Part shown: positions 3,429 to 53,802 of the stretch, piece by piece
Position numbering within the stretch: the stretch's first letter is position 1
Layout: each line of letters starts with the position of its first letter
Source of the DNA: an uncultured Amylibacter sp.
GTDB taxonomy: Bacteria; Pseudomonadota; Alphaproteobacteria; Rhodobacterales; Rhodobacteraceae
Direction: 5' to 3'
Length of the DNA stretch: 64,000 nucleotides
NCBI GenBank assembly: GCA_959347425.1
Contig: OY365741.1
Location: 310,001-374,000, forward strand
Made by a program: the position numbers and the translations under genes
The notes under the pieces: generated by a model
The model's input: only the letters and a program-made list of their open reading frames with translations
Told to the model about the DNA's origin: nothing
Database searches by the model: none

Positions 3429-3866
3429 ATGCAAGCCAAACCGACCCAAATCAAACCTGTTAATGCCGAATTTTCCGTGGCGGGGCAGATTGCGCCCGCC
3501 GATATTGCGGGGATAAAAGCCCAAGGTTTTCAAACGATTATTTGCAATCGCCCGGATGGGGAGACTTGGGGACAACCCGATTTTGACGGGATAGCCACGG
3601 CCGCACGGGCGGCTGGAATGCAAGTCGCTCACCTGCCGATTAGCGGTGGGGTTGGCGGTGCCGATGTCATTGCGTTCAACAATATGTTGCGCGATATGCC
3701 CGCGCCCGTGCTGGCGTATTGTCGCTCTGGTATGCGGTGTATGACGTTGTGGGCTTGCACGCAGGCGCGTGATGGTGTGGCGATTGATGATATTATGACG
3801 CAGGCCGAGGCGGCGGGCTATGACCTTTCGCAGGTGGCGGGGGTTGTTTTAGGTTTTAACGATTAA
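3429..3866 (+). CDS. DUF442 / TIGR01244-type phosphatase-like sulfurtransferase
   Basis: 145 residues. I chose the ATG at 3429 because AAGGAG lies six bases upstream; an in-frame ATG at 3390 would add 13 residues and has no such site. Seen: a compact dual-specificity-phosphatase-like fold with the Cys-loop YCRSGMRC around residue 100 (Cys, then Arg five residues later). Known: this family is found alone or fused to a beta-lactamase-like persulfide dioxygenase (Blh) and is linked to sulfide detoxification; its exact reaction is unsettled. The divergent TauE/SafE permease fits a sulfur role. The last residues (GFND) and the stop lie in an AACGATT tandem array that opens the next intergenic element. 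Confidence 0.8.
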   Translation: MQAKPTQIKPVNAEFSVAGQIAPADIAGIKAQGFQTIICNRPDGETWGQPDFDGIATAARAAGMQVAHLPISGGVGGADVIAFNNMLRDMPAPVLAYCRSGMRCMTLWACTQARDGVAIDDIMTQAEAAGYDLSQVAGVVLGFND

Positions 3867-4192
3867 CGATTAACGATTAACGATGAATGTTTTCCGTCAC
3901 TTCTTGACTGGTCGGCATAACGAAGTTATGACGAAGACCCGCAGGGCTAAATAAATTTAGAGCAAGCCTATCACCAATTCCCAAGTATTCTTTGCAAATA
4001 ATCCAATCTCTCGTCTTGAATATCCTGCTAATAAATCTAGGAAATACTTATAGTCTTGTAACCAAAGGCTTTTGTGTATGGGCTTTTTCGAAGTTTTATT
4101 TTGGTCGGGCAGGTTCAACTGCCCTTATGTAAAAGCTCTATATGCACAAAAGCCCCCATTAATCGTTAATCATTCATCGTTAATCGTTAATA
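3857..4192 (+). repeat. Array-bounded intergenic element, copy A
   Basis: Left array of taacgat units at 3857-3888, right array of the reverse complement (atcgtta) at 4159-4191. Between them: the GACGAAGACCCGC...GGGC module, the AT-rich core 3947-4061 (ctaaataaatttag ... gtcttg), then the tail GGCTTTTGTGTATGGGC ... GCACAAAAGCC. A short extra piece (about 4097-4128, with its own GGGCAG...CTGCCC hairpin) sits in the tail hairpin and is absent from other copies. No gene is seen here. The family is described under copy B. Confidence 0.85.
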
Positions 4193-4321
4193 TTTTTGCC
4201 TAAAAAATAAGCACCCACTCCATCACTGCCCTTTTTTAAGGCATAATCGCACAAACCACTCCCCCCCGACACACCTCCTCTGTAAATCCCGACAAAACCC
4301 GCTAGAACCCGACTAAACGCC

Positions 4322-4386
4322 ATATAAACAAGCCATATAAACAAGCCATATAAACAAGCCATATAAAAAAGCTATATAAACAAAAG
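4322..4386. repeat. 13-bp tandem repeat immediately upstream of amt
   Basis: Five consecutive copies of ATATAAACAAGCC, the first three exact and the last two diverged, end at the ribosome binding site of amt. The TATAAA within every unit resembles a -10 element, so copy number could affect promoter or leader function. That effect is inference. Confidence 0.9.
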
Positions 4387-4397
4387 GAAACCCCACA

Positions 4398-5576
4398 ATG
4401 AACGGCGCAGATACAGTCTGGATTTTTACAGCCACCGCTTTGGTTTTATTTATGACCTTACCAGGAATAGCCCTATTTTACGGAGGATTGGTGCGGTCGC
4501 GTAACGTCTTATCGGTCCTTATGCAGTGCTTTACGCTGACCTGCCTGTTATCCTTGCTTTGGTTCGCACTCGGCTACAGCATAGCCTTTGGCACGCAAAA
4601 CCCCATCTGGGGCGGGCTGGGCAAGGCGTTCCTGCTCGGCGTAACCCCGCAAAGCCTAACCCAAACCATCCCCGAAATCTTGTTTTTCACCTTTCAAATG
4701 ACCTTCGCCATCATCACCCCCGTGCTGATGATCGGCGCGTTTGTGGAACGGGTGCATTTCGGTTTCCTGCTGGTAATATCGAGCCTGTGGTTATTGCTGG
4801 TCTACGCCCCCGTGACCCACTGGATTTGGGGCGGAGGCATGCTATCTGGCGGTGAAAATGCGTTGTTCGCCGAGCCCGTTTTGGACTTTGCGGGCGGGAT
4901 AGTCGTGCATCAAACCGCGGGGTTAAGCGCCTTGCTGATCGCCGCAATGATGGGCGGGCGGCGCAATAAAAACGTGCCACCGCACAACCCCGTATTTGTG
5001 ATGATTGGCGCGTCTATGCTGTGGGTTGGCTGGTTTGGATTTAACGGAGGCTCTGCCTTGGCGGTCAATGAAATAAGCGCGATGGCGATTGCTGTTACCC
5101 ATATCTCGGCGGCCTCTGCTGCGGTTTTCTGGGCTGGGTATGAGTGGTTGAAATACGGCAAAGCCACACTGATTGGCGTGGTCACGGGCGCGATTGCTGG
5201 GCTGGCGAGCATCACCCCTGCCTCTGGTTTCGTCACCCCGATGGAGGCGTTGTTTATCGGCGCGGTCGCGGGGATTGTGTGCCAAGAAATGTGTCGGTTT
5301 ATCAAGGGAATCGCGCGGATTGATGACACGCTGGATGTGTTTGCCGTGCATGGGGTTGGCGGGATTTGGGGAATTATTATGCTGGCGGTTTTGGGCTATG
5401 CCGATTGGACGGCGCAACTGGGCGGGCTGGCGGTTGTTGGCGGGTTTAGCCTGCTGGTGACCTATGTTTTGGTCAAGGTGGTTGGGGTGTTTTTGCCTCT
5501 GCGGGTGAGCGAAGAGGCGGAAGCTCTGGGTTTGGATTTTGCAACCCACGGGGAGCGGGCGTATTCTGGCGATTAG
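4398..5576 (+). CDS. amt: Ammonium transporter Amt
   Basis: 392 residues, normal for the Amt/MEP/Rh family (about 390-430), with 11 predicted membrane helices. Seen: the family N-terminus ALFYGGLVRSRNVLS, the motif DFAGGIVVHQTAGLSAL that carries the ammonium-site Asp and first pore His, and HGVGGIWGII with the second pore His. There is no cleavable signal peptide, and AAAGGAAA lies 7 bases before the ATG. Known: Amt trimers conduct ammonium across the inner membrane and are gated by the PII protein GlnK. No glnK gene is adjacent, which is unusual because glnK usually precedes amtB. The nearby ntrY-ntrX nitrogen-linked two-component genes fit the context. Confidence 0.94.
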   Translation: MNGADTVWIFTATALVLFMTLPGIALFYGGLVRSRNVLSVLMQCFTLTCLLSLLWFALGYSIAFGTQNPIWGGLGKAFLLGVTPQSLTQTIPEILFFTFQMTFAIITPVLMIGAFVERVHFGFLLVISSLWLLLVYAPVTHWIWGGGMLSGGENALFAEPVLDFAGGIVVHQTAGLSALLIAAMMGGRRNKNVPPHNPVFVMIGASMLWVGWFGFNGGSALAVNEISAMAIAVTHISAASAAVFWAGYEWLKYGKATLIGVVTGAIAGLASITPASGFVTPMEALFIGAVAGIVCQEMCRFIKGIARIDDTLDVFAVHGVGGIWGIIMLAVLGYADWTAQLGGLAVVGGFSLLVTYVLVKVVGVFLPLRVSEEAEALGLDFATHGERAYSGD

Positions 5577-5990
5577 TTGTTAGTTATTAGTTATTAGTTA
5601 TTAGTGATGAATGGATTAGCCCTTCGGGTCTGCGTCATAACTTCGTTATGCCACCACGGGGCGCGACCGCACCCTTGAGGGCAAGCCCTCTTCGGGGCGG
5701 TCGCGCCCAAGCCTGTCCTAGTATCTAGGCACAGCCTAAATAAATTTAGAGCAAACCTATCGCCACTTCCCAAGTATTCTAAACAAATAATCCACTCTAA
5801 CGTCTTGTTATTCCAGATAATAATTTTATAGAGACTCTATAGTCTTGAAACCCAAGGGCTTTTGGCATGCCCTCACACCGTGAGGGCTACGCACAAAAGA
5901 CCACGCTGGTCGGCACTCGCGCAAGCGATGACGAAGACCCGCAAGGGCAGACTCACTAATAACTAATAACTAACAACTAATAACTAGCAA
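5572..5990 (+). repeat. Array-bounded intergenic element, copy B (amt-ntrY)
   Basis: A typical full copy. Layers from outside in: left array of TTAGTTATTAG units (5572-5610) that includes the amt stop; AGCCCTTCGGGTCTGCGTCAT; a GC-rich hairpin module (gcgcgaccgcaccc ... ggtcgcgcccaa, 5660-5710); TCTAGGCACAGCC; an AT-rich core (5736-5850); a tail with CTTTTGGCATGCC, a small GC hairpin, and GCACAAAAG; GATGACGAAGACCCGCAAGGGC; right array of CTAATAACTAAC units (5953-5988). The first and last layers are reverse complements, so the element is a nested imperfect palindrome. No protein gene is credible inside it. Confidence 0.88.
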
Positions 5991-5992
5991 CC

Positions 5993-6047: not shown

Positions 6048-8291
6048 ATGGTTATGCTTGACGCTCTGCGCTTATGGATTACGCCAATAGGCGACACACC
6101 CACCCCCATCTGGAACAGGCGACCCAGCCTCCGCCTGCTTCAAGCAACCGCCCTTATTATATTCGGCGCGGTCCTCATCACACTGACCATCTTTGAACTC
6201 CGCACGGTAGAGGGCGATTTATCAAACCCCACCCTGCAAATCCTATACATCATAAACCTGCTATACAGCGCAACGCTGGTGATATTACTTTTCGCCTCCA
6301 TCCGCAGGATTTTCACCAGACGGCGGGCTTATATCACGGGGTCTAACCTGCATCGTCGCCTCGGCGTGATACTCGCGATTTTGGCGTTTATCCCAACTGT
6401 TATGATTGCCGTATTCTCTAACATAGTCGTTAATTTCAGCCTAGACGGATGGTTTTCCGACCGTATCAGCAATGTCGTCAGCGCGTCCTTGGCGGCGGCG
6501 CAAGCCTACGAATTACAACAACGCAACGATTTGGAGCAAGATATCCAATTCATCGGCTTTACCCTTGATAACCTTAAACGCACTCAGCCGTTATTGGACG
6601 GCGGGGATGTTCGCATAGCCCTTACCAGCGTGCAACAGCAAATCCAACGGGGGTTAAAGGAGGCGTATGTTATTAACGGCGCGGGGGAAATCAAATCACG
6701 CGGAGAAAACAGCTATCTTTTCGGGTTTGAACCGCCCGCCATTCCCGATTTTATCCTTGCTGACCAAGGCACAACCGTGGTTATCCAAGACTGGCAGAAC
6801 AACGAATTCCGCGCGATGGTGCGTTTGTCTAATTTCGCCGACCGCTATCTGTATTTATCGCGGGAGGTTGATGGGCAAATCCTGTCCCTATTGGATGAAA
6901 CCGCGAATACCATTCAATTATACAATCGTTTGGAAGACCAGCGCAGCCAATTCTTTTTCAATTTCACCCTGCTTTATGTGATGTTTTCGCTGATTGTGGT
7001 TTTGTTTGCGATTCGGGCGGGGTTGCTGTTTGCCGATATGCTATCGCGCCCGATAGAGCGATTGGCGGGGGCGGCACAAAGGCTGGGCGATGGCGATTTT
7101 AACGTCCGCGTGCAGGAGGAAAAGAGCATCAGCGAATTCGCCTTACTGGGCAATGTGTTCAATACTATGACCGAGCAACTGGAAGACCAGCACAACAACC
7201 TGCTGGAAATTAACGAGCGGACCGAACGCCAACGTCGCCTATTTGACGAAGTGCTATCAAGCGTCACCGCCGGTATTATCGGCCTATCCGCACAGGGCAA
7301 AATCCGCATTATCAATCAGGCGGCGGTTACATTTTTGGGCATTGACGCAACCCACGATATTGATAAATTCATTGACATAGCCGTGCCAGAATTCGCCAGT
7401 TTGTTTCATCAGTTGCAGAATGGGCAGAAGGGGCAGCAGGAAAAAATCACCCTTACACGGGCCGGGCGGGAAGAGGTTTTATTGGTGCGGATTACCGGGC
7501 GGTATAACGGGTTTGGCGACCTAGAGGGCTATGTTGTGACCTTTGATGATGTGACGAACCTAGTCTCTGCCCAACGGATGGCGGCTTGGGGCGATGTCGC
7601 GCGGCGTATCGCGCACGAGGTGAAAAATCCACTAACCCCGATTCAGTTGGCGGCGCAACGATTGGGGCGCAATTATTCGGCGCATTTGAAGGATGATGAA
7701 AAGGCGGATTTTTTAAAGCATACAGAGATAATAGCCCGTAAGGCGGGCGATTTGGGGCTTATCATCAACGAGTTCTCCAAATTCGCGAGGATGCCAAAGC
7801 CTACCAAACGCCCCTGTGATTTGTGTGCGTTAATCGCCGATGCTGTGGTTTTGGAATCGCCTAGTTTTGAGGGGATAACCATCAATTTCACCAAATCGGT
7901 GGAGGTTATTATGGGGAATTATGATGAAGCCTTGATGTCCCAAGTGGCTATTAATGTGATAAAAAACGCGGGCGAGGCGATTTATGCGTTGCAGGAACAG
8001 CCTGATGTGAAATCGTTCGCTCCGCAGATAAAGGTGGATGTATCGGTGGAGGGGGCGCAGGCGCAAATCATCATAGCGGACAATGGGATTGGTCTGCCTG
8101 ACACCGATAGGATGGGGTTGTTTGAGCCGTATATCACGCGGCGCAAGGAAGGCACGGGCTTGGGGTTATCTATCGTCAAACGGATTGTGGAAGAGCATAG
8201 TGGCACTATTCATCTGGAAGACGCGGAAGTGTTTAAGGGGTGTGCGCATTTCGGGGCGCGGGTGGTTATTTTGTTGCCAATGGGGATTTAG
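6048..8291 (+). CDS. ntrY: Sensor histidine kinase NtrY
   Basis: 747 residues, usual for NtrY. Seen: several N-terminal membrane segments (about residues 30-130) with a periplasmic or extracytoplasmic sensor stretch to about residue 305, a further membrane segment, a HAMP linker (SRPIERLAGAAQRLGDGDF, about 330-370), a PAS-like domain (SSVTAGIIGLSAQGKIRIIN), the HisKA box IAHEVKNPLTPIQLAAQRL with the phosphorylated His near 523, and the ATPase motifs NVIKNAGEAI, DNGIGLP and TGLGLSIVKRI. Known: NtrY phosphorylates NtrX and controls nitrogen, redox and envelope functions in Alphaproteobacteria. ntrX is next but is separated by an intergenic repeat (copy C) and seems to have its own promoter. ntrB and ntrC, often upstream in relatives, are absent; amt takes that place. 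Confidence 0.93.
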   Translation: MVMLDALRLWITPIGDTPTPIWNRRPSLRLLQATALIIFGAVLITLTIFELRTVEGDLSNPTLQILYIINLLYSATLVILLFASIRRIFTRRRAYITGSNLHRRLGVILAILAFIPTVMIAVFSNIVVNFSLDGWFSDRISNVVSASLAAAQAYELQQRNDLEQDIQFIGFTLDNLKRTQPLLDGGDVRIALTSVQQQIQRGLKEAYVINGAGEIKSRGENSYLFGFEPPAIPDFILADQGTTVVIQDWQNNEFRAMVRLSNFADRYLYLSREVDGQILSLLDETANTIQLYNRLEDQRSQFFFNFTLLYVMFSLIVVLFAIRAGLLFADMLSRPIERLAGAAQRLGDGDFNVRVQEEKSISEFALLGNVFNTMTEQLEDQHNNLLEINERTERQRRLFDEVLSSVTAGIIGLSAQGKIRIINQAAVTFLGIDATHDIDKFIDIAVPEFASLFHQLQNGQKGQQEKITLTRAGREEVLLVRITGRYNGFGDLEGYVVTFDDVTNLVSAQRMAAWGDVARRIAHEVKNPLTPIQLAAQRLGRNYSAHLKDDEKADFLKHTEIIARKAGDLGLIINEFSKFARMPKPTKRPCDLCALIADAVVLESPSFEGITINFTKSVEVIMGNYDEALMSQVAINVIKNAGEAIYALQEQPDVKSFAPQIKVDVSVEGAQAQIIIADNGIGLPDTDRMGLFEPYITRRKEGTGLGLSIVKRIVEEHSGTIHLEDAEVFKGCAHFGARVVILLPMGI

Positions 8292-8550
8292 TGATTAGTG
8301 ATTAGTGATTAGTGATGAATTATTGGTTATTAGGGATTGGGGTTCGTTATTAGGAGTTGGGGATAGAGGTTTTTTATTACGCCATTTCTTCGAAATGTCG
8401 CCCGCCCGCCCACCCCTCCTGCGGAGTGCGGGCGGAATTTTATGGCTGGGGTTTAGCCCAGCGTCTTGTATATAGTCCAAATAAATTTATGATAACCTTA
8501 TCGTCTTGTAGCCACCACTAATCACTAATCATTAATCATTAATCACTAAA
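8288..8550 (+). repeat. Array-bounded intergenic element, copy C (shortened, ntrY-ntrX)
   Basis: Left array of TTAGTGA units (8288-8318, including the ntrY stop) and right array of the reverse complement (ATCACTAATCATTA, 8515-8550). The interior keeps the AGAGGTTTTTTATTACGCC...CGCCCGCCCACCCCTCCTGCGGAG module and a fragment of the AT-rich core (ccaaataaatttatgataacc ... gtcttgtagcc, about 8478-8512). The middle of the core and the tail hairpin are missing, as in an internal deletion. No gene is seen. Confidence 0.82.
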
Positions 8551-11517: not shown

Positions 11518-12084
11518 GTGAGTGATTAGTTATTAGTTGTTAGTTGTTAGTTATTAGTTCTTAGTTATTAGTTATTAGTTCTTAGTTATTAGTTCTTAGT
11601 TATTAGTTATTAGTTGTTAGTTGTTAAGGGCTAGGTATTGGGAGTTAAGGGCAGAGGTTTTTTGTTGCGCCCTCACTGCGTTCGGTTGCCCACCCGCCCA
11701 CCCCTCCTGCGGAGAGCTGGACGGGGTTTTGTGGCTAAAGCCTGTCTTTGTGTCTAGGCAAAGCCTAAATAAATTTAGAAATTGCCCATCACCAATTCCC
11801 AAGTATTCTTTGCAAATAATCCAATCTATCGTCTTGTTATTCCAAATAGTAAATTTATGACAAGCCCTAACGTCTTGCAACCAAGGGGCTTTTGGCATGC
11901 CCTGCTCACAGAGCAGGGCTACGCACAAAAGACCACGCTGGTCGGCATTCGCGTAAGCGATGACGAAGACCCGAAGGGCTATTCATCGTTAATCATTCAT
12001 CGTTAATCGTTAATCCCTCTCTTTACAATTCATAATTTATCACTAATAACTAACAACTAATAACTAACAACTAACAACTAACAT
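11518..12084 (+). repeat. Array-bounded intergenic element, copy D (trkA-trkH)
   Basis: One of the largest arrays: TTAGTTATTAGTTGTTAG units run from 11518 to about 11625, and the reverse complement (CTAATAACTAACAAC) fills about 12042-12082, preceded by a TTAATCG-type patch (11976-12015). Interior: AGAGGTTTTTTGTTGCGCC...CCTCCTGCGGAG module, the AT-rich core (11765-11880), tail CTTTTGGCATGCCCTGCTC...GAGCAGGGCTACGCACAAAAG hairpin, and GATGACGAAGACCCGAAGGGC. Small frames through it are repeat translations, not genes. A weak TTTACA box lies near 12022. Confidence 0.87.
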
Positions 12085-12085: not shown

Positions 12086-13606
12086 ATGCGTATATTCAAA
12101 GACCTCCCCCTTTCGCTTTACCTATATTGGGCGGTCGTTGCGCTGATGCTCATCCCGATGACCTTCGCCACGATTGCCGAGGATTGGCTGTTCGCGCGCA
12201 CCTTCTTTTACCACGCCCTAGTCCTTGGCATATGGGGCTGGTTGCTATCCATAGCCGTCGCGGACAGGTTCAAAGGCAATAAATTCGTCCATTACCTCGC
12301 CGATGTGCTGGTCGGGTTCGCCCTATTGCCCGTCCTTATGGCGCTCCCCGTGGATTACCTGCTGCCCCATATTAACTTCTGGCACGCGTATTTTGAGATG
12401 TCCTCATCCTTCACCACCACGGGCGCAACCCTGCTGGGCGAGGGGCAAACAATCCCCGATGTCATCCATCTGTGGCGCGGTTTGATAGCGTGGCTGGGCG
12501 GTCTCTTTATGATTATCATCGCCAGCACCTTGTTTTTCTCCATTAACCTCGGCGGGTTTGAGGTTTATTCCCAAGGCAACAAAGGCCTGCTGATTGCCAG
12601 CGTGTTTCAACGCGGCGATTTGCGCCATCAAATGCGGCGGTTTGCCCGCGTGATTGCCCCTATTTATATCGGCTTGACCCTAGTTTTGGCACTGGCGTTG
12701 ATAATAGCGGGGGATAGACCGTTTGTCGCGTTTATCCACGCGACCTCTGTGCTATCCACCAGTGGGATTTCGCCGATTGGCGGGCTGGAAAACGCCGCCT
12801 CTGGCTGGGTCGGCGAGGCTATGATTTTCGCGTTTCTGCTGTTCGCCCTATCGCGCCATCATCTGTTTTTGTTTGACTCCAAAACCCGCCTGTCCAATAA
12901 ATTTGCCGAGGTCAAAAGCGACCGAGAATTCGCGCTGGCTTGGCTGATAATCTTTGGCGCGACCGCCGTTTTATTCCTGCGCCATTTCTGGGCGGCGTTC
13001 AAATTGGACGAGGCTGGGGACATCAGCCAAGCCCTCACCGCCGTTTGGGGGACGGTTTTTAATGTGCTGTCGTTCTTAACGACCACTGGGTTTCAGAGCC
13101 AATATTGGCGCGCCGCGCAGGATTGGTCTGGTCTGGGGACTACCGTTTTGATTTTGATGATTCTAACGATGATGGGCGGGGGGATTGCCACGACCGCGGG
13201 GGGGATTAAACTCTTGCGGGTTTATGCGTTAATAAAGCATGGGCAACGCGAAATGTATCGCCTGAACTTCCCCCATTCCGTTGGCGGAGCAGGGATGCAA
13301 GCGCGGGCATTACGGCGCGAGGGTGCCTACGCCGCGTGGATTTTCTTTATGCTGTTCTTGGCGTTTTTGGCAGTGGGGATGATGGCGTTTGGATTGACGG
13401 GTTTGGACTTTGAAAACAGCCTGATTTTGGCGGTTTCGGGGCTGTCCAATACCGGGCCTTTAATCGGCACGGTTTATGGCGATTTTATCGGGTATATGCA
13501 ATCAAACGCCGCCGCACGGTGGATATTTTGCGTGCTGATGGTGCTGGGGCGGTTGGAAATTCTGGCGGTTATGGCGGTTTTGAACCCGATGGTGTGGCGG
13601 GGGTAG
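12086..13606 (+). CDS. trkH: Trk potassium uptake system membrane protein TrkH
   Basis: 506 residues, typical (about 480-510). Seen: many hydrophobic helices and the four pore loops with selectivity-filter glycines, recognisable as SSSFTTTGATLL, LSTSGISPIGG, FLTTTGFQSQ and GLSNTGPLIG. Known: TrkH is the potassium-conducting subunit in the inner membrane, controlled by TrkA, which lies upstream. The start is crowded against the right array of copy D (the ATG is the third base after CTAACATC), so no classical ribosome binding site is visible; the arrays may have replaced it. The gene is followed by TTAGTTATTAG units that open a cassette holding an opposite-strand gene. Confidence 0.94.
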   Translation: MRIFKDLPLSLYLYWAVVALMLIPMTFATIAEDWLFARTFFYHALVLGIWGWLLSIAVADRFKGNKFVHYLADVLVGFALLPVLMALPVDYLLPHINFWHAYFEMSSSFTTTGATLLGEGQTIPDVIHLWRGLIAWLGGLFMIIIASTLFFSINLGGFEVYSQGNKGLLIASVFQRGDLRHQMRRFARVIAPIYIGLTLVLALALIIAGDRPFVAFIHATSVLSTSGISPIGGLENAASGWVGEAMIFAFLLFALSRHHLFLFDSKTRLSNKFAEVKSDREFALAWLIIFGATAVLFLRHFWAAFKLDEAGDISQALTAVWGTVFNVLSFLTTTGFQSQYWRAAQDWSGLGTTVLILMILTMMGGGIATTAGGIKLLRVYALIKHGQREMYRLNFPHSVGGAGMQARALRREGAYAAWIFFMLFLAFLAVGMMAFGLTGLDFENSLILAVSGLSNTGPLIGTVYGDFIGYMQSNAAARWIFCVLMVLGRLEILAVMAVLNPMVWRG

Positions 13607-14082
13607 TTATTAGTTATTAGTTGTTAGTTATTAGTTTTTTTGGGTTAGTTTTGTTGTTTTAATAATGCTTGTAATAAGTTTTATCAGCTCTTCACATTCA
13701 TCAAACAAGCTCTGAAATTCTTTTTCAGAAAAATGATTTGTTTCCTTCAATAATTCCAGCCAATACAAAGTTTCATTGGTTTCCTTTTGCGCAATGGCGA
13801 GCTTATGGATAAAATCGGCGGTGCTTTCCGCATGTTGCGCTTCGCGATATAATGCACCAATGGCAGTGCCAGAACGCAAAAGCTGTTTGCTTAAAACATA
13901 TTCACGTTTTTCTATCAGGAATTTATACGCCTTTACAATCCGCACTGCAAAAGCAAAACTTTTATTTTTTAGGGGAGTCTTTTTAGTCATCATAATTCAT
14001 CATGTATTGTTAATAATTAACAATTAATTAAAAATGCTCGAAAAATAACTAATAACTAATAACTAATAACTAACAACTAATA
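13604..14082. repeat. Array-bounded cassette carrying a gene (trkH-hfq)
   Basis: TTAGTTATTAGTTGTTAG units at 13604-13636 and their reverse complement (CTAATAACTAATAACTAAC) at 14045-14082 enclose the four-helix-bundle gene instead of the usual core repeat. The two ends match in type, as in most elements of this family. trkH and hfq, which flank it, are neighbours in related genomes, so this looks like an insertion. Confidence 0.7.
13631..13993 (-). CDS. Four-helix bundle protein (S23 / 23S rRNA intervening-sequence family)
   Basis: 120 residues, usual for the family (about 115-130). Seen: four amphipathic helices with the family pattern FAVRIVKAYKFL, LLRSGTAIGALYREAQHAESTADFIHKLAIAQKETNETLYWLELL. 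Known: such proteins were first found inside intervening sequences of 23S rRNA genes and are also scattered elsewhere; they form pentameric bundles and their function is unknown. It is on the opposite strand to the surrounding trk-hfq genes and lies within inverted tandem arrays, suggesting it arrived as cargo. The start may be at 13993 or the next Met (13990); no clear ribosome binding site is visible. Its base composition looks more AT-rich than trkH. Confidence 0.85.
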   Translation of the reverse strand: MMTKKTPLKNKSFAFAVRIVKAYKFLIEKREYVLSKQLLRSGTAIGALYREAQHAESTADFIHKLAIAQKETNETLYWLELLKETNHFSEKEFQSLFDECEELIKLITSIIKTTKLTQKN

Positions 14083-14089
14083 AAAGCGT

Positions 14090-14488: not shown

Positions 14489-15864
14489 TGCGCGCCTGCG
14501 TCCTTTATCCCTTTATAAAAACGCGCGATAACACCGCCGCGGCCGCCCACAGATTGCAAGAATCAGAGGCCTTGGCGACCGCCTTAAACCTATCCCTGAT
14601 TCACAGCGCAACCGTGCCTATGCGCGGATTTTCCGCAGGATTGCTGTTCGCGCGGGGCAAATTGGACGAATTGGCGGAGATTATCGCCGACAAAGACATC
14701 GGTTTGGTAGTCATTGACGGCGCCCTCACCCCCGTGCAACAGCGCAATTTGGAACGCCGATGGAAGATAAAAGTCATCGACCGAACGGGTTTGATTTTGG
14801 ATATTTTCGCCAAACGCGCGAAGAGCCACGAAGGTGTTTTACAGGTGGAATTGGCGCAATTAACCTATCAAAAGAGCCGATTGGTGCGCAGTTGGACGCA
14901 TCTTGAACGCCAACGCGGAGGCTTGCAATTTGTCGGCGGGGCGGGCGAAAGCCAGATAGAATCTGACCGCAGAGCGTTAGACAACGCCATCGTTCGCATC
15001 AAACGCCGTCTGGATAAAATCGTGAAAACGCGCAATTTGCATCGGGCGGCGCGGCGGTCTGTGCCTTATCCTATTGTCGCGCTGGCGGGGTACACTAATG
15101 CGGGGAAATCCACTGTTTTCAATGCTTTAACTGGGGCTGGGGTGGTCTCAAAAGACATGCTGTTTGCCACCTTGGATCCGACTATGCGGATGGTTCGCCT
15201 GCCCTCTGGTCGTGAGGTTATCGTGTCCGATACGGTTGGGTTTATCTCGGCCCTGCCGACCGAATTGATAGCGGCGTTTCGCTCGACTTTGGAAGAGATT
15301 ACCAGCGCGGATGTCGTGCTGCATATCCACGATAGCGCGAGCGCGCGGATGGAAGAGCAAGCCCGCGATGTACGGCGGATATTGACGCAGTTGGGGGTTA
15401 TGGATGAAGTGGGTGGGGGGTCTGTCGTGGAATCGGTTGTGGATTTTGGCAAGGATTTTGGCAAGGATTTTAACGGAGCTGATGGGGAGTCGGGTGTGGA
15501 GTCTAGTGGCTCTTCCGCCCCGCAGATAGAGGTGTATAATAAGATTGATTTATTGGAGGAGTCCGCCTTTGATACCCTGCAAAATAAGGCCGAACGGCAG
15601 GATAATATGGTGTTGCTTTCGGCGATTGACGGGCGCGGGTTGGATAAATTATGTGCGGCGATTGATGTGGCTCTGCACGATAAAGTCCGTGATAAGCTGG
15701 TGGGCGCGACCCTGCGCCTTGGCTTTGATGAGGGCAAACGCCGTGCGTGGTTGTTTGAGCAAAACGTGATTGTTAAGGAACGGCAGTTAAAGGCGGGCTT
15801 TAAGATTGAAGTGAGCTGGACGGCTGAACAGGCGGTTCGGTTTGAGAGAATGGTTAGTGACTAG
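14488..15864 (+). CDS. hflX: GTPase HflX
   Basis: 458 residues. Seen: the HflX N-terminal domain (ARGKLDELAEII ... LTPVQQRNLERRW ... ERQRGGLQFVGGAGESQIESDRR) and the GTPase domain with G1 GYTNAGKST, G3 DTVGF and G4 NKID. Known: HflX binds the 50S subunit and splits stalled ribosomes, especially in heat stress. Between G3 and G4 there is a Gly/Asp/Ser-rich insert of about 40 residues (GGGSVVESVVDFGKDFGKDF...), not seen in typical HflX; it contains a small duplication (DFGKDFGKDF). The start overlaps the hfq stop. The last residues (MVSD) and the stop coincide with a TTAGTGACTAG array remnant. Confidence 0.93.
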   Translation: MRACVLYPFIKTRDNTAAAAHRLQESEALATALNLSLIHSATVPMRGFSAGLLFARGKLDELAEIIADKDIGLVVIDGALTPVQQRNLERRWKIKVIDRTGLILDIFAKRAKSHEGVLQVELAQLTYQKSRLVRSWTHLERQRGGLQFVGGAGESQIESDRRALDNAIVRIKRRLDKIVKTRNLHRAARRSVPYPIVALAGYTNAGKSTVFNALTGAGVVSKDMLFATLDPTMRMVRLPSGREVIVSDTVGFISALPTELIAAFRSTLEEITSADVVLHIHDSASARMEEQARDVRRILTQLGVMDEVGGGSVVESVVDFGKDFGKDFNGADGESGVESSGSSAPQIEVYNKIDLLEESAFDTLQNKAERQDNMVLLSAIDGRGLDKLCAAIDVALHDKVRDKLVGATLRLGFDEGKRRAWLFEQNVIVKERQLKAGFKIEVSWTAEQAVRFERMVSD

Positions 15865-16755
15865 TGGGCGGGGGCTTTTGTGCATATAGAGCTTTACTTG
15901 CGTAAAGCCCATACACAAAAGCCTTTGGTTACAAGACGATAAGGTTATTCTAAATTTATTTAGGCTTTGCCTAGATATAAAGACAGGCTTTAGTCATAAA
16001 AACCCGTCCGCCCAAGCCTCGCAGAGGGGTGGGCGGGCGGGAAGCCCGAACGAAGGGGCTTGCCCCGAAGTGAGGGCGAAACAAAAAACATTTACCGTTT
16101 ATCATTAAAACCCATTCGTCATGTTTGGCACGGGTCGCGCGAACCCGAAGGGTGTGCGTCATGGTTGTTAGGATACAGGGATTCGCGTCACCAGCGACTC
16201 TAAAATACACTGACCCAGTACAACCGATAAGCTGACGCGCACCCGTGGGGGTGAGGGTGCGCGCGACCGCCCCCCCTGCGGACACGTCCGCTAAAATTAG
16301 GAAACAAGGCGGTCGTTTCCTAGATTATTAGGTCTGCTCTAGAATAATGATTAGCGGATTAGCCCTTCGGGTCTTCGTCATTGCTACGCAATGCCGACCA
16401 GCTCCACGCGAGGGTGGGGTCTTTTGTGCGTAGCCCCCACTTCGTGGGAGCATGCCAAAAGCCCTTTGGTTACAAGACGATAGGGATTGTCATAAATTTA
16501 CTATCTGGAATAACAAGACGTTAGAGTGGATTATTTGCAAAGAATACTTGGGAAGTGGTGATAGGTTTGCTCTAAATCTATTTAGGCTTGGCAAAAGACG
16601 CTCGGACAGGCTTGGGTGCGCCCGCCCCGAAGAGGGCTTTGCCCTCAAGGGTGCGGGTGCGCCCCGTGGTGACATCGCAAAGCGATGGCGAAGACCCGAA
16701 GGGCATCACTAATAACTAATAACTAACAACTAACAACTAACAACTAACAACTAAA
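15853..16755 (-). repeat. Composite array-bounded intergenic element, copy E (hflX-rplI)
   Basis: The longest element, about 890 bases between convergent genes. It reads in reverse orientation. It holds (i) a truncated reverse copy, 15870-16090, with the GGGCTTTTGTGCATATAGAGC...GCCCATACACAAAAGCC hairpin and the GC-rich CCCGCCCA module; (ii) a separate 229-base module at 16121-16349, shared with copy H; (iii) a full reverse copy, about 16355-16700, with its core at 16471-16586. The right array (CTAATAACTAACAAC, 16706-16755) is long and the left array is only a remnant next to the hflX stop. Open frames across it are repeat translations and I do not call genes. Confidence 0.85.
16121..16349 (-). 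repeat. 229-bp module shared with the element at 31683-31917
   Basis: Read on the minus strand it starts with CATTATTCTAGAGCAG and matches 31683-31917 on the plus strand over nearly its whole length with few differences, by eye about nine bases in ten. It contains strong hairpins (GCGCACCCTCACCCCCACGGGTGCGC; CACACCCTTCGGGTTCGCGCG). The longest frames through the two copies diverge after small indels, so selection for a protein is unlikely. Confidence 0.85.
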
Positions 16756-19463: not shown

Positions 19464-21305
19464 ATGACACATCACAAACCAACGGCTACTCGCCATATAT
19501 CGCCTTATTTCATTGGAATTTGCGCGACCGCACTCGCCATTTTCACGCTGACCACCCCCGTTTTCGCGGATAATCATGGAATTTCCCACGGGATATCAAT
19601 GTATGGCAAACCTGCCCTACCCGCGAATTACACCGCCCTGCCCTACGCCAACCCTGACGCACCCAAAGGCGGGCAGATAGTCTTTGGCGAATCGGGCGGG
19701 TTTGATTCGCTGAACCCCTATATTTTAAAGGGGCGTTCCCCTTGGGGAGTCCGCGCCCACATGGTTGAATCCCTGATGGGGCGGAATTGGGATGAACCTT
19801 TTGCGCTATACGGATTGCTCGCCGAATCGATAAAAACCGCGGATGACCGCAGTTGGGTGGAATTCACTCTGCGCCCAGAGGCGCAGTTTTCTGACGGCAG
19901 TCCCGTGACGGTGGACGATGTTTTATGGAGCTTTGAGACGATGGGCGCGATTGGTCATCCACGCTATCAACGCTCTTGGCAGAATGTAGCCAGTGCCACC
20001 CAAACGGACGAACGCACTTTGCGAATCGTCTTTAAAGAACAGGATTTGGAAGCGCCTTTAATCATGGGTTTGCGCCCCGTTTTGAAAAAATCCGATTGGG
20101 ACGGGCGGGCGTTTGATGAAAGCGGGCTTGACCCTTTCACCGCTTCGGGTGCCTATATTTTGGACGAGTTTGAACCCAATAGGTTTATCCAATTCCGCCG
20201 TAATCCGGATTATTGGGGGCGTGATTTGGCGTTCAATCGCGGGCGTAATAATTTTGACACTATTCGTTACGAATACTTTGGCGATGGTGGCGTGGTTTTT
20301 GAGGCTTTTAAGGCAGGCACAACCAGCGTTCATCGCGAATGGAACGGGGCGAAGTGGAATTCTAGCTATGATTTCCCAGCCGTGCAATCGGGGGCGGTGG
20401 TGAAATCTTTAATTCCGCATCAGCGACCGACTGGTATCAATGGGTTTGTTATGAATACCCGCCGTGATATTTTCAAAGACTGGCGGGTGCGTGATGCTAT
20501 GATTCACGCTTTCAACTATGAATTCATCAATCAAACCGTTAATGATAGCGCGATTGCGCGGATTTCCTCGTATTTTTCAAATTCGGTTTTGGGAATGCGG
20601 GAGGGCGCGGCGACTGGTAAAGTGCGTGATTTGCTCACGCCCTTTGATTTGATTGACGGCGCGATGGACGGCTATACCCTGCCCGTATCGGACGGCAATG
20701 TGCGCAATCGTGGGAATTTGCGGATAGCGACGGCTCGGCTGGCAGAGGCTGGCTGGACGATACAGGACGGTGTATTAAAGAACAGCGCGGGCGATGTGTT
20801 TGCCTTTGATATCGTGCTGAGTGCGGGGTCTACCGAAGACGAAGCGATTGCCAATATCTATGCCGATGCGCTGCGCCGTTTGGGGATGGATGCGCGGGTG
20901 ATAACCGTGGATTCGGCGCAGTATAAGGAGCGTGTGACGGTCTATGATTTTGATATGACGAAGTATCGGCGCGGGTTGTCTTTGTCCCCAGGGGTTGAGC
21001 AAAAGGCGTATTGGGGCGGTTCTGGGGTGGTCGAGCCAGGGTCTCGCAATTATATGGGAGTGGATAATGCGGCGATAAATGCGCTGGTGGATGGGTTGGT
21101 TTTGGCCGAATCGCAGGAGGATTTCGTGGCGACGGTGCGCGCCTTGGACAGAGTGCTGATGGCTGGGCGGTATGTTATCCCGATATGGCCAGCCCCTGCC
21201 TTGCAATCGCGGGTGGCGCATAAGCGTGAGCTGCATTATCCTGCCGAGCTGCCGATATACGGTGATTGGATTGGGTTTATGCCCGATGTTTGGTGGGACG
21301 AATAG
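19464..21305 (+). CDS. ABC transporter peptide-binding protein, SBP family 5 (YejA-like)
   Basis: 613 residues. Seen: N-terminal signal peptide (to about residue 36, TTPVFA|DN), then HGISMYGKPALPANYTALPYANPDAPKGG, GGFDSLNPYILKG and YGLLAESIK, which are typical of the YejA/oligopeptide-binding branch of SBP family 5; SDGSPVTVDDVLWSFE is the family signature. Known: such proteins bind peptides in the periplasm and deliver them to an ABC importer; YejA relatives also carry microcin C. The permease and ATPase genes are not nearby: the next gene is an exporter on the other strand. A short AAAGGAATG precedes the start. The gene ends in ordinary sequence, with the stop joined to a TTAGTTGTTAG array. 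Confidence 0.88.
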   Translation: MTHHKPTATRHISPYFIGICATALAIFTLTTPVFADNHGISHGISMYGKPALPANYTALPYANPDAPKGGQIVFGESGGFDSLNPYILKGRSPWGVRAHMVESLMGRNWDEPFALYGLLAESIKTADDRSWVEFTLRPEAQFSDGSPVTVDDVLWSFETMGAIGHPRYQRSWQNVASATQTDERTLRIVFKEQDLEAPLIMGLRPVLKKSDWDGRAFDESGLDPFTASGAYILDEFEPNRFIQFRRNPDYWGRDLAFNRGRNNFDTIRYEYFGDGGVVFEAFKAGTTSVHREWNGAKWNSSYDFPAVQSGAVVKSLIPHQRPTGINGFVMNTRRDIFKDWRVRDAMIHAFNYEFINQTVNDSAIARISSYFSNSVLGMREGAATGKVRDLLTPFDLIDGAMDGYTLPVSDGNVRNRGNLRIATARLAEAGWTIQDGVLKNSAGDVFAFDIVLSAGSTEDEAIANIYADALRRLGMDARVITVDSAQYKERVTVYDFDMTKYRRGLSLSPGVEQKAYWGGSGVVEPGSRNYMGVDNAAINALVDGLVLAESQEDFVATVRALDRVLMAGRYVIPIWPAPALQSRVAHKRELHYPAELPIYGDWIGFMPDVWWDE

Positions 21306-21607
21306 TTGTTAGTTATTAGTTGTTAGTTATTAGTGGGGGCTTTTGTGCATATAGAGCTTTACTTGCGTAAAGCCCATACACAAAAGCCTTTGGTTACAAG
21401 ACGTTAGGGATTCTATAAATTTGTTTAGGCTATACAAAAGACGCTAGGACAGGCTTGGGCGTGCCCGCCCCGAAGAGGGCTTGCCCTCAAGGGTGCGGGC
21501 ACGCCCCGTGGGGGCATCGCAACGCGATGACGCAGACCCGAAGGGCTAAAATAACTAATAACTAATAACTAATAACTAACAACTAACAACTAATAACTAA
21601 TCGTTAA
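21304..21607 (-). repeat. Array-bounded intergenic element, copy F
   Basis: Left TTAGTTGTTAGTTATTAG units (21304-21336) and right CTAATAACTAACAAC units (21549-21607). The interior is in reverse orientation: tail hairpin (GGGCTTTTGTGCATATAGAGC...GCACAAAAGCC type), a core cut to about 36 bases (21395-21430), then the GC-rich hairpin GGCGTGCCCGCCCC...GGGCACGCCCC and GCAGACCCGAAGGGC. The right array overlaps the 3' end of the LysE-type gene and sets its last codons. Confidence 0.85.
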
Positions 21608-32048: not shown

Positions 32049-32051
32049 AAC

Positions 32052-35031: not shown

Positions 35032-35430
35032 ATGATGAATGGTGAATTATTGGTTATTCTGGATTAGAGGTTAGGTATTGGAAGTAAGAGCAGAGGTTTT
35101 TTGTTACGCCATTTCTTCGAAATGTCGCCCGCCCGCCCACCCCAGCCTGTCCGAGCGTCTAGGCACAGCCTAAATAAATTTAGAGCAAACCCATCGCCAA
35201 TTCCCAAGTATTCTTTGCAAATAATCCAATCTATATTCTTGTTATTCCAGATAGTAAATTTATAGAAAACCTATCGTCTTGTAACCAAAGGGCTTTTGGC
35301 ATGCTCCCACGAAGTGGGGGCTACGCACAAAAGACCATGCTGGTCGGCACTCGCGTAAGCGATGACGAAGACCCGAAGGGCATTATTCACAATTCACAAT
35401 TCACAATTCATAATTCACCATTCATCATTA
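35019..35430 (+). repeat. Array-bounded intergenic element, copy I (tmk-holB)
   Basis: Here the arrays are of a different type: left GGTGAATTGTGAATGATGAA (35019-35052) and right CACAATTCACAATTCATAATTCACC (35383-35430), again reverse complements. Interior: AGAGGTTTTTTGTTACGCC..., GC-rich CGCCCGCCCGCCCACCCC, the AT-rich core (35170-35283), tail GGCTTTTGGCATGCTCCCACGAAGTGGGGGCTACGCACAAAAG, GATGACGAAGACCCGAAGGGC. The core is the same as in the copies bounded by TTAGTTA arrays. Confidence 0.88.
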
Positions 35431-51141: not shown

Positions 51142-51927
51142 ATGCGCATTTTAATCACAAACGACGATGGAATAGACGCGGCAGGCCTGCGCGTCATGCA
51201 CGATATCGCCGCGCAATTCACCGATACGGGGAACATAACGACTATCGCGCCCGCAACCGACCAATCGGGCGTAGGGCATTGTATTTCCTATAAAAAATCC
51301 GTGAAAATCACCCGCCCCGCACCAAACCGCATCATAGCCCACGGCACCCCAGCCGATTGCGTCATCATCGGGCTGTTAGAAATGCAACCCGATTTAATCT
51401 TATCGGGCGTGAATGCGGGCAATAACGCGGCGCAAAATGTTTTGTATTCTGGCACGGTTGGCGCGGCGATTGAGGGATGTGCGAATGGCGTGAATTCCAT
51501 TGCTCTGTCGCAGTTTTATGGCGATAGGATTGACCCGAACGATATGTTCAGCGCGGCGCGGGGGGCGGGCGTGGCCACCGTGCAGAGCATACTGGATTTC
51601 AAATGTTGGGCGGACACTGGTGCTAACGGGGCGCAACCTCTGTTTTACAATGTGAATTTCCCACCCGTGCCTTATGCGGATATAATCGGGACTCGAATCA
51701 CCACGCAAGGCACACGCCCAAACCCTCCGTTTCTGGCAGAGCGGGACGGCGATTCGGTTCGCATTATCGGCACGCCTCAGCATAGCCCCACGGCGCAGGG
51801 CAGTGATGTTTATGAAAACCTAAACGGCTATATTTCCATAACGCCTTGCCTTATGGATTTAACCGCACGGGGGTGTTTGGACGGGTTGCGGGCAAAACTG
51901 GACGCGAAATTGGATAAAACAAAATGA
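51142..51927 (+). CDS. surE: 5'-nucleotidase SurE
   Basis: 261 residues from the ATG at 51142 (MRILITNDDGIDAAGL); the upstream frame is the serS end. Seen: the metal-binding Asp pair (NDDG), LSGVNAGNNAAQNVLYSGTVGAAIEG, and the family core. Known: SurE is a metal-dependent phosphatase acting on nucleoside monophosphates, important in stationary phase. It overlaps pcm by four bases, the conserved surE-pcm pair. Confidence 0.95.
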   Translation: MRILITNDDGIDAAGLRVMHDIAAQFTDTGNITTIAPATDQSGVGHCISYKKSVKITRPAPNRIIAHGTPADCVIIGLLEMQPDLILSGVNAGNNAAQNVLYSGTVGAAIEGCANGVNSIALSQFYGDRIDPNDMFSAARGAGVATVQSILDFKCWADTGANGAQPLFYNVNFPPVPYADIIGTRITTQGTRPNPPFLAERDGDSVRIIGTPQHSPTAQGSDVYENLNGYISITPCLMDLTARGCLDGLRAKLDAKLDKTK

Positions 51928-52577
51928 CCAAACACACGCCCAAATCCGGCTATTTGGATATGCTCCGCACCGCAGGAGTCACCGATTCACGCGTCTTACA
52001 AGCATTGCAAAACATCCCACGCACCGCCTTTATCGCCGATAAATTCCAAGCCTATTGCTTTGACGATACCGCCCTGCCGATAGCGTGCGGGCAAACCTTA
52101 TCCCAACCCTCCATCGTCGGCATAATGACCCAAGCCTTGGATGTCGGACCCCGCGATAAAGTGCTGGAAATCGGCACGGGGTCGGGGTTTCAAACGGCTA
52201 TTTTAAGTCAGCTTTGCCGACGGGTTTATTCGCTTGACCGCCATTTGGATTTGGTTAATACCGCCGCCGTGCGCATTCAACTGCTGGGGATTGTCAATAC
52301 GACACTCACCCTTGGCGATGGCGGATTGGGCTTGCCTAAACAAGCGCCGTTTGATAGAATCATCCTAACGGCGGCGGCAGAGGATGCACCCGCGCCGTTA
52401 TTGGCGCAGTTAAAAACCGATGGAATTATGGTTCTGCCCGTGGGGCAAGCGGAACGGATGCAAAACTTGATAAAGATAACGAAAACTGCTAAACGGCTGG
52501 TTTATGAGGATTTGGACGAAGTGCGATTCGTTCCCCTTATTGAAGGCGTGGCAGAAATGGCGACTGGGTCGCAGTAA
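51924..52577 (+). CDS. pcm: Protein-L-isoaspartate O-methyltransferase
   Basis: 217 residues, standard. Seen: FIADKFQAYCFDDTALPIACGQTLSQPSIVGIMTQAL near residue 35-70 and the SAM-binding VLEIGTGSGFQTAIL. Known: it methylates isoaspartyl residues and starts their repair. Start is coupled to the surE stop (ATGA). A short gap of 9 bases leads to the LysM-M23 lipoprotein. Confidence 0.95.
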   Translation: MTKHTPKSGYLDMLRTAGVTDSRVLQALQNIPRTAFIADKFQAYCFDDTALPIACGQTLSQPSIVGIMTQALDVGPRDKVLEIGTGSGFQTAILSQLCRRVYSLDRHLDLVNTAAVRIQLLGIVNTTLTLGDGGLGLPKQAPFDRIILTAAAEDAPAPLLAQLKTDGIMVLPVGQAERMQNLIKITKTAKRLVYEDLDEVRFVPLIEGVAEMATGSQ

Positions 52578-52586
52578 GGAGTGGTT

Positions 52587-53381
52587 ATGAGATTCTTGGT
52601 GATAATGTGCGCGGTTGGGGTTGCCTTGGCTGGGTGTAGCGATGTGGAAACGTTGGATGATTTGGGGCGGAAGCTGGATCCGTTGCCCGAACTGGATAGC
52701 TATGAATCAACCGTTGCCGTGGTGGATGAGGGTGATGAGATTACCCAAACGACTCTGGATGATAATTCTGCTGGTGGTGAGGTCGCGGGCGCGGGTGGCA
52801 CGCGCTATCATATCGTGCGTGATGGCGAGACGGCGGAGTCTATCGCGGGGTTATACAGCGTGTCAGAGACGGAATTATCCAGTTGGAACGGGCTGGATTC
52901 GGAAAATACCGTGCAAACGGGGCAGCAATTGTTAATCCCGTTTTCAGAAGAGGCGGTTGTGGCTGTTGCCGATGAAACCGTTGCCGATGAAGCGGTTGCG
53001 GAGGATAAACCCGCAAGCCCCCCCGCCAAGCAATCCAAATTCCTACGCCCCGTGGATGGGCCGATTAAAGAGCCCTATTCGGACGATCCAAACGGCAACG
53101 AGGGGATTGATTTTTCTACCGTTCAGGGGACTCCTGTCCGAGCGGCGGACGATGGAGTGGTTGCTTTGACCTCCGCTTCTGTCAATGATACGACTATTAT
53201 TTTGGTGCGCCATGATGATGAGTTTTATACGGTTTATTCCAATGTAAATGCCCCGCAAGTCGCCAAGGGCGATACGGTTCGGCGAGGTGAAACGATTGGG
53301 CAAGTCGCCAGTGATTTTGTCCATTTTGAGGTGCGCAAAGGGATTGATGCGGTGGATCCAACACCTTATATTAGTGATTAG
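52587..53381 (+). CDS. LysM and LytM (M23-like) lipoprotein, NlpD/EnvC-like
   Basis: 264 residues from the ATG at 52587, with TAAGGAG at a 5-base distance; two residues are added if the GTG at 52581 is used. Seen: lipoprotein signal with lipid Cys near 17 (GVALAGC), a LysM domain (YHIVRDGETAESIAGLYSVSE...LLIPF, about 70-115), a Glu/Val/Ala-rich link, and a C-terminal LytM domain (about 150-264). The first metal-site His-x3-Asp is NEGID here, while HFEVR remains, so like E. coli NlpD it is probably not catalytic and activates amidases instead. The surE-pcm-nlpD order is well known. The end YISD and stop lie in a TTAGTGATTAG array. Confidence 0.85.
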   Translation: MRFLVIMCAVGVALAGCSDVETLDDLGRKLDPLPELDSYESTVAVVDEGDEITQTTLDDNSAGGEVAGAGGTRYHIVRDGETAESIAGLYSVSETELSSWNGLDSENTVQTGQQLLIPFSEEAVVAVADETVADEAVAEDKPASPPAKQSKFLRPVDGPIKEPYSDDPNGNEGIDFSTVQGTPVRAADDGVVALTSASVNDTTIILVRHDDEFYTVYSNVNAPQVAKGDTVRRGETIGQVASDFVHFEVRKGIDAVDPTPYISD

Positions 53382-53802
53382 TTGTTAGTTATTAGTTATT
53401 AGTTATTAGTTATTGGTTGTTAGGAATTGGGGGTTGGTTATGAGAGGTTAAGAGCGGAGGTTTTTTGTTGGACATTTCTTCGAAATGTCGCCCACCCGCC
53501 CGCCCTAGCCTGTCCTAGTATCTAGGCAAAGCCTAAATAAATTTAGAAAAAACCCATCACCAATTCCCAAGTATTCTTTGCAAATAATCCAATCTATCGT
53601 CTTGTTATTCCAGATAGCAAATTTATAGAGAATCTATAGTCTTGAAACCCAAGGGCTTTTGGCATGCCTCCACGAAGTGGGGGCTACGCACAAAAGACCA
53701 TGCTGGTCGGCATTCGCGTAGCGATGACGAAGACCCGAAGGGCTAAAGGGCTAAAGCCACTAACAACTAATAACTAACAACTAACAACTAATAACTAATA
53801 AT
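53372..53802 (+). repeat. Array-bounded intergenic element, copy J (nlpD-like-glcB)
   Basis: Left TTAGTTATTAG units (53372-53420) and right CTAACAACTAATAAC units (53757-53802), matched in type. Interior: AGCGGAGGTTTTTTGTTGGACATTTCTTCG..., GTCTAGG-type module, the core (53532-53645), tail GGCTTTTGGCATGCCTCCACGAAGTGGGGGCTACGCACAAAAG, GATGACGAAGACCCGAAGGGC. The right array encodes the last residues of malate synthase G. Confidence 0.88.

Follow-up and report, generated by a model that had tools for sequence, protein, structure and literature searches.

Inverted seven-base arrays enclose structured mosaics and an IVP gene between the genes of an Amylibacter chromosome

The region described here is a 64,000-nucleotide stretch from an uncultured Amylibacter sp. 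(assembly GCA_959347425.1, contig OY365741.1, forward-strand positions 310,001 to 374,000), the whole of which is referred to as the window. Thirteen intergenic elements (E1–E13) were identified within it, bounded by arrays of a seven-base unit that face one another in inverted orientation (Table 1). Twelve hold non-coding material, and E11 carries a gene of the Pfam family PF05635 (23S_rRNA_IVP, hereafter IVP). The surrounding genes are those of an alphaproteobacterial chromosome and encode a histidine kinase adjoining ntrX, which we take to be NtrY and label as such, along with trkA, trkH, hfq, hflX, a ribosomal protein and EF-Ts. The best named relative of the window's GatB belongs to Amylibacter (Rhodobacterales) at 79% identity, and among the matches listed two on ENA contigs are much closer, at 99% and 94%.

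A first-pass annotation of this DNA had listed ten gaps holding structured mosaics bounded by inverted arrays, and this description is borne out, as period-7 arrays and common modules are present in all ten (E1–E10). Each gap contains a left array of a seven-base unit, structured material, and a right array that is the reverse complement of the left, except in E5, where the two arms do not match each other at all. The same type of boundary is featured in E11, E12 and E13, which were absent from that list. A scan for inverted pairs, which misses E5 (15853) with its weak left arm, found 12 pairs at period 7 in the window and none at periods 5, 6, 8, 9, 10 or 11; across 20 dinucleotide shuffles it found no period-7 pair. 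Period-7 arrays scoring at least 9 numbered 31 in the window vs 0–2 per shuffle (n = 20). The arm unit varies from gap to gap (TTAACGA, TTAGTTA, TTAGTGA, AATTGTG), and the terminal repeats match within sites and vary between them, so that they are not the conserved ends of a miniature inverted-repeat transposable element (MITE). Over the 13 sites, the score of an arm with its own partner averaged 28.8 vs 17.0 when partners were permuted (p 4e-5, 100,000 permutations). The own partner ranked within the best three at 8/13 sites because similar units are common to many of them.

The arrays are found at gene ends. At eleven sites a plus-strand gene precedes the element and Tandem Repeats Finder reports the left array. 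The stop codon falls inside that array at nine; at the remaining two, E4 and E13, it lies 5–6 bases ahead of the array. In the convergent gaps (E5, E6, E7 and E10) the stop of the facing gene falls within the right array. None of the 12 inverted pairs is located in the three clear divergent gaps (19135–19463, 26920–27042, 58387–58493). The window pattern is therefore one of inverted arrays that mostly start at the stop of the preceding gene, not of direct sets upstream of start codons. All of the elements lie between protein genes and none inside an rRNA gene; neither rRNA nor any other Rfam family was matched at the gathering threshold over the whole window, and at E ≤ 1 over positions 3800–60000 the only hit was a weak, sub-threshold match to Histone3 (E 0.23). 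The earlier statement that transposase-like genes are lacking agrees with a scan of 42 distinct open reading frames (ORFs), a part of those in the window, in which no transposase, integrase or reverse transcriptase family was matched.

Table 1. Elements of the window and two features within them
Feature	Coordinates	Strand	Description
E1	3856..4191	+	arms TTAACGA / TTAATCG arrays; cargo of M hairpin, core and tail
E2	5572..5990	+	arms ATTAGTT / ACTAATA arrays; GC-rich hairpin, core, tail, two M hairpins; fold z -11.7
E3	8288..8550	+	between NtrY-like kinase gene and ntrX; arms TTAGTGA / CACTAAT; short core
E4	11518..12084	+	between trkA and trkH; arms of AGTTATT / ACTAACA units; inner ATCGTTA array
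E5	15853..16755	.	convergent gap; two element bodies in inverse orientation; weak left arm; right arm ACTAACA array
E6	21303..21607	-	convergent gap; core and tail inverted; arms TAGTTAT / AATAACT
E7	25450..26036	+	convergent gap; longest arms (17 and 12 units); own partner ranks first
E8	31454..32049	+	arms TAACGAT / TAATCGT; GC-rich module common with E5; tail; no core seen
E9	35017..35430	+	arms AATGGTG / ATTCACA; core, tail, M hairpin; fold z -5.7
E10	53369..53802	+	convergent gap; arms TATTAGT / ACTAACA; core, tail, M hairpin; fold z -7.4
E11	13604..14083	-	gene-bearing; between trkH and hfq; arms TAGTTAT / AATAACT
IVP / four-helix-bundle gene	13631..13993	-	120 aa; PF05635, TIGR02436; cargo of E11
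E12	57586..57737	.	second, short non-coding cargo; arms TGAATTG / ATTCACC
E13	59152..59331	.	second, short non-coding cargo; arms AATTGTG / AATTCAC
M hairpin example	25586..25626	+	CAT-stem-loop-stem-ATG, then GACGAAGACCCG; 12 window copies; compensatory changes

The gene carried by E11 encodes a protein that matches PF05635 (E 5.7e-27) and the NCBIfam entry TIGR02436, 'four helix bundle protein' (E 4.3e-30). Its closest solved structure, and the sole one found by sequence, is 2rld (E 2.8e-34). The gene points against both of its neighbours, trkH and hfq, which makes it an exception to the usual orientation of IVP genes. There is no reverse transcriptase beside this Avd-like gene, and neither a reverse transcriptase nor a template/variable repeat was recognised around E11. 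It is this gene that shows the kinship of the window elements with a class of IVP-bearing elements.

Three of the occupied gaps were compared with ten Rhodobacterales genomes. Between the kinase gene and ntrX (E3 site) there are 323 bp in the window, whereas the genes overlap or are separated by at most 27 bp in 10/10 relatives. The gap between trkA and trkH (E4 site) is 570 bp vs at most about 52 bp in 8/8 relatives, and that between trkH and hfq (E11 site) is 552 bp vs 104–165 bp in 8/8; the last two counts omit L104, in which the cluster is split, and L108, in which the genes are on the other strand. The window elements at these gaps are insertions. The first-pass suggestion of non-autonomous elements that have spread between genes gains support from these relatives without an insert and from the cargo common between sites.

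This cargo is made up of recurring parts. A common block of 160 nt (D4) is present in six same-strand copies with 73–100% identity to its reference. Strict patterns identified 12 window copies of the hairpin GACGAAGACCCG and five of the tail CTTTTGGCATG...CACAAAAG, and a second type of tail, CTTTTGTGTATGGG...CTATATGCACAAAAG, was seen by eye in E1, E5, E6, E7 and E8. An AT-rich core had been annotated as common to all ten gaps; judged by eye, it is missing from E8 and occurs in short form only in E3 and E6. E12 and E13 have a second, short type of cargo in common. By eye, the string ATTATTGGTTATT is found beside an arm in E3 and E9, slightly altered (one change) in E10, and in an altered, inverted form in both E12 and E13, and on this account the two cargo families look connected.

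The M hairpin, a stem-loop flanked by CAT and ATG, exhibits compensatory changes. Eight of its 12 copies, representing six distinct forms, were compared after exclusion of four with a longer, bulged stem; 96% of the cells were paired and the covariation was 0.474, vs 0.157 when shuffled and at most 0.156 when slid. The evidence that these stems are real as RNA structure is moderate because the sequences are few. E10, E9 and E2, three of the 13 elements, were folded whole as RNA and each gave one long stem with inner hairpins (z values in Table 1); the closing stem is formed by the arms in all three. A relic of an IVP gene was sought in all 13 elements and only E11 scores, so that the non-coding elements are rejected as decayed IVP genes. 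The mosaic cargo looks lineage-specific within the collections searched, as copies outside the window were not recovered: the hairpin pattern gave three single matches in genome contigs, from unrelated organisms and with about one expected by chance (an estimate), 0 in viral contigs and none in plasmids, and the element DNA gave one 29-base match only against 390 Rhodobacterales genomes.

Several further features of the window were observed. An array of 15 copies of the 10-base unit GTTAATTATT occupies a convergent gap (2381–2534) and is followed by a short inverse stretch, so that it is element-like with a period of 10. The 13-base repeat GCCATATAAACAA is present in five copies (4319–4383) immediately upstream of an ammonium transporter gene. 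Single short heptamer arrays, for which the pair scan gave no inverted partner, are located at other gene ends (631–679, 33111–33147, 43505–43533 and 55992–56010). Immediately preceding E8, a lysozyme-like gene (GH108, peptidoglycan-binding) lies beside a GTA_holin_3TM gene (30322–31463); these are perhaps gene-transfer-agent lysis genes. A 1728-codon open frame (38311–43497) contains diverged internal repeats (families D12, D16, D18 and D20). The gene at 57706–58386 features a dimethylsulfoniopropionate lyase domain (PF16867), which fits a marine host.

IVP genes elsewhere exhibit the same boundary. PF05635 was searched in 289 alphaproteobacterial genomes (15 with a match) and in 398 genomes of the phylum Pseudomonadota (61 with a match). 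The phylum search supplied 62 new loci, with weak fragments, contig-edge matches and one second copy on the same stretch excluded. The loci read numbered 82, and removal of three weak ones (L019–L021), two with short flanks and then 15 near-duplicates (77 to 62) left 62 for analysis, among which the misplaced L050 is counted as a miss. As controls, 189 ORFs were taken from the same stretches; their period flanks were 200 bases vs 160 for the IVP loci, which favours the controls. The best tandem period in the flanks was 7 in 50/62 IVP loci and 14 in a further 6/62, vs 17/189 and 12/189 controls respectively. A period-7 score of at least 10 was reached on either flank by 46/62 IVP loci vs 8/189 controls, and on both flanks by 17/62 vs 0/189. 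When the upstream flank was compared with the reverse complement of the downstream flank, own pairs scored a mean of 16.6 and mismatched pairs 7.9, the best of 20,000 permutations being 9.4; the own pair lay above the 99th percentile of mismatched pairs in 28/62 IVP loci vs 3/189 controls. The association of PF05635 with inverted, locus-specific period-7 arrays is strong.

Copies on plasmids from five further phyla (11 of 25 records read) had a best period of 7 in 11/11 and an inverse score of at least 14 in 9/11. Two IVP loci, L018 and L079, are located inside 23S rRNA, both with heptamer arms. The E. coli 23S rRNA has no heptamer arms at the L079 site in a comparison read by eye, in which the gap for L018 fell inside the IVP gene. 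With simple ORF calls at 61 loci, the IVP gene is oriented with both neighbours in 46, against both in five, divergent in four, convergent in three and far from them in three. This orientation fits dependence on a host transcript or entry through RNA.

The element is present in some genomes and absent from others at one junction within a single genus. The end of the gene upstream of L028 was used as a probe and matched 61/61 genomes, of which the best 30 were read. An IVP element is present in 14 and the junction is empty in 14; one genome has arrays only and one has a remnant. In the 14 occupied genomes the probe is 468–598 bases away from a motif at which the following gene starts, and both the heptamer arms and the IVP gene's ends can be read in the interval. 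The 14 empty ones have 43–56 bases, comprising the native stop and a ribosome-binding site, with no heptamers. The arrays-only genome (L186) has a different unit, complementary except for about one base in seven, and the remnant (L193) has lost the left arm and most of the IVP gene. On a tree of the upstream flank, the presence of IVP requires 9 changes, at least 6 of them forced by well-supported branches, vs a mean of 10.2 for shuffled labels; 150 of 500 shuffles were as low as the observed count. The trait is thus about as patchy as chance, which implies repeated gain, loss or allele exchange, and the number of changes does not separate these.

A second junction, presumably nuoC-nuoD to judge by the encoded sequence, holds an IVP element in seven genomes (L015, L033, L036, L039, L047, L048 and L085). 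Their heptamers vary (GTGAGTA, GGCAGTA, GGCGAAT and GCGAATA types), and the two arms of each look alike; either the arms of one element change together, or these may be independent insertions at one site. Four further loci (L055, L058, L061 and L037) lie at one junction with an 8-base arm unit (TACTGCCC or TACTCCCC), which varies by species and is the same in both arms. Heptamers are also found apart from the gene. The array GGCAGTAGGCAGTAGGCA occurs in 8/12 IVP-bearing genomes, with up to 44 matches in one and 0 for a reversed control pattern. Of 20 GGCAGTA loci picked away from known IVP matches, an inverted partner was found for 18 when the threshold was relaxed and a distance of up to 300 bases allowed; most of them are bare hairpins whose loop is short. 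A further 54 stretches (466 kb) contain 12 inverted pairs at period 7 with IVP and five without, four and one respectively at period 8, and none at periods 5, 6, 9, 10 or 11.

Based on these observations, the gaps of the window are probably insertions of an element class resembling the intervening sequences of rRNA. The constant part of such an element would be two inward-facing seven-base arrays, mutually reverse-complementary and able to make one long stem. The cargo between them appears to be interchangeable and would consist of an IVP gene in the coding form (as in 13604–14083), of a structured non-coding mosaic, the form multiplied in the window, or of almost nothing, the near-empty form being the bare heptamer hairpin of other genomes. 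The elements are located at gene ends and, at the junction resolved in detail, between the stop codon and the next ribosome-binding site.

Several steps of a mechanism can be suggested with differing confidence. RNase III might cut the stem once it is transcribed, as it reportedly does where this anatomy occurs in 23S rRNA, and hosts would therefore tolerate the elements between cistrons; we put this forward tentatively. Such a cut could leave the proteins of both cistrons unharmed, and an insertion between stop codon and ribosome-binding site would then survive. The chances are about even that a locus keeps its own heptamer since slippage and strand-switching in the hairpin copy one arm onto the other. 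Also tentative is the suggestion that the non-coding mosaics are non-autonomous relatives spread by the same route, perhaps with the IVP protein, a relative of Avd, handling nucleic acid. The findings point to a widespread, little-noticed class of insertion element. In its broadest and still speculative form, this view would make orphan IVP genes across bacteria the coding branch of a single mobile class whose inverted heptamer ends renew themselves. Non-coding derivatives such as the window mosaics could make up a sizeable share of the heptamer arrays and hairpins found where bacterial genes end. The class would need no conventional transposase to move, and a route linked to hairpins or to RNA would take it between a stop codon and the ribosome-binding site that follows.

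A number of observations weigh against this interpretation. The mosaics have the boundary of E11 and no IVP relic, so the arms alone link them to IVP elements, and presence and absence were seen for the coding form, in genomes other than that of the window. A perfect inverted pair was measured in under half of the IVP loci, and 16/62 have no period-7 score of at least 10 on either side. The three weak PF05635 matches (L019–L021, two of them over the cut-off) have no arms, and there are none around the single phage copy read of two records. In the 34 IVP loci with an inverse score of at least 14, A-C mismatches on the sense-strand stem outnumber G-U by 34 to 15; by locus, A-C is ahead in 13 and G-U in four, with 17 ties. 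This result goes against an RNA-selected stem on the IVP sense strand, and the window arms read on the plus strand gave G-U 8 vs A-C 11. The first-pass suggestion of structured RNA therefore survives in part, with strong folds and compensatory stems in its favour and outer arms without the excess of G-U over A-C that a selected sense-strand stem would have. No known mobility gene was recognised among the 42 window ORFs scanned, and inspection of the L028 junction by eye gave no sign of a target-site duplication. Not every heptamer array is such an element, because those near start codons in Beggiatoaceae are almost all direct, with 169 direct sets and one indirect according to the available portion of PMC4679880.

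The inverted heptamer hairpins could alternatively be an ordinary, slippage-grown feature of gene ends, such as terminators or stabilisers of mRNA 3' ends, into whose loops IVP genes and modules insert. The IVP-less hairpins common in some genomes, the window stop codons inside arrays, the lack of any pair in the three clear divergent gaps, and the arrays without a gene in L186 at the same junction as L028 would all be expected of such a feature. Against it, the 14 empty genomes at the L028 junction and the E. coli 23S rRNA at the L079 site have no heptamers, and the arms accordingly come or go with the element; some elements also lie inside tight gene pairs (trkA-trkH), where a terminator would silence the next gene. 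We consider this explanation unlikely. Classical MITEs, mobilised by the transposase of an insertion sequence in another part of the genome, would likewise be dispersed and non-coding, with inverted ends and cargo common between sites. A transposase needs conserved ends, whereas the terminal repeats here vary by site, and the gene found within the same boundary is an IVP gene and not a transposase. This origin is very improbable, although a transposase may lie outside the window. There is scarcely any likelihood that the arrays are neutral satellites, functionless and unconnected with any element, for whose growth at AT-rich gene ends slippage and strand-switching in hairpins would suffice. 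The excess of A-C over G-U does not suggest RNA selection, and one survey, as cited in PMC4679880, describes heptanucleotides as the commonest of the long simple repeats in the majority of its genomes; both fit neutral growth, which nevertheless leaves unexplained the association with one protein family and the cargo common to several window sites, and is disfavoured by the presence and absence of a whole gene-bearing unit at the L028 junction.

If the insertion of an element class is accepted, a single anatomy unites three subjects that are treated apart in the literature consulted, namely heptamer repeats between genes, orphan four-helix-bundle genes and the intervening sequences of rRNA. 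This anatomy was seen in the six phyla whose loci were read, and its presence and absence at one junction in one genus. The role of the IVP protein, the movement of intervening sequences and the abundance of seven-base repeats become testable. Caution is also called for in guilt-by-association, as an IVP gene lies amid the defence genes of three plasmids with heptamer arrays alongside: between cas2 and cas1 (L114, an Anabaena plasmid), between hsdS and hsdR (L115, Monoglobus) and between drmD and mmeI (L116, Planktothrix). Because the arrays adjoin the gene in all three, it may be a passenger in the cas, hsd and drmD-mmeI settings and not a component of the defence systems. In PMC10910872, 23S rRNA IVP is named in the legend to a display of CRISPR-associated domains.

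Repetitive extragenic palindromes (REPs) have a sequence conserved across copies, and the gene of their transposase, RAYT, is flanked by repeats and accompanied by many non-coding copies. Like REPs, bacterial interspersed mosaic elements (BIMEs) and the REPIN-RAYT system, the window elements are palindromic, dispersed, located at gene ends and composed of a repeat-flanked gene plus non-coding copies; unlike these, their arms vary by locus and the gene is IVP, with no RAYT transposase among the 42 ORFs scanned. MITEs are short and non-coding with inverted ends, as are the window mosaics, whose ends differ from those of MITEs in not being conserved between copies.

PF05635 resembles the Avd protein of diversity-generating retroelements in sequence and structure, according to the excerpt of PMC10053308 consulted; E11 is unlike such a retroelement in that no reverse transcriptase or template/variable repeat was recognised around it. 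Intergenic TAACTGA heptamer repeats are described from Beggiatoaceae, Cyanobacteria and Bacteroidetes in the available portion of PMC4679880. They resemble the window arrays as tandem heptamers in intergenic space, and Cyanobacteria and Bacteroidetes also have IVP genes with heptamer flanks. They differ in being direct and near start codons, whereas the window arrays are inverted, and no link to IVP is made in that portion of the article.

Within the open PubMed Central literature surveyed, outside which most subscription papers and preprints fall, no general claim was found that inverted heptamer arrays bound PF05635 genes or that these genes have non-coding relatives. Heptamers themselves are already on record, from the intervening sequence of Coxiella (PMC4990558) and from groups that include Beggiatoaceae (PMC4679880). 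The intervening sequences of 23S rRNA are the known kind closest to the window elements. In the accessible part of PMC4990558, those with an ORF encode the S23p / IVP family, the Coxiella example is 428 nt long with the tandem heptamer GACAGAT, and excision by RNase III is reported. The same protein family, a long terminal stem of complementary ends, tandem heptamers and small size are featured in the window, where an S23p / IVP ORF is found in E11 and not in the other 12 elements, and the long stem is represented by the 12 inverted pairs. The differences from the rRNA sequences described there are that the window elements are located between protein genes, have locus-specific arm units and hold mostly non-coding mosaic cargo.

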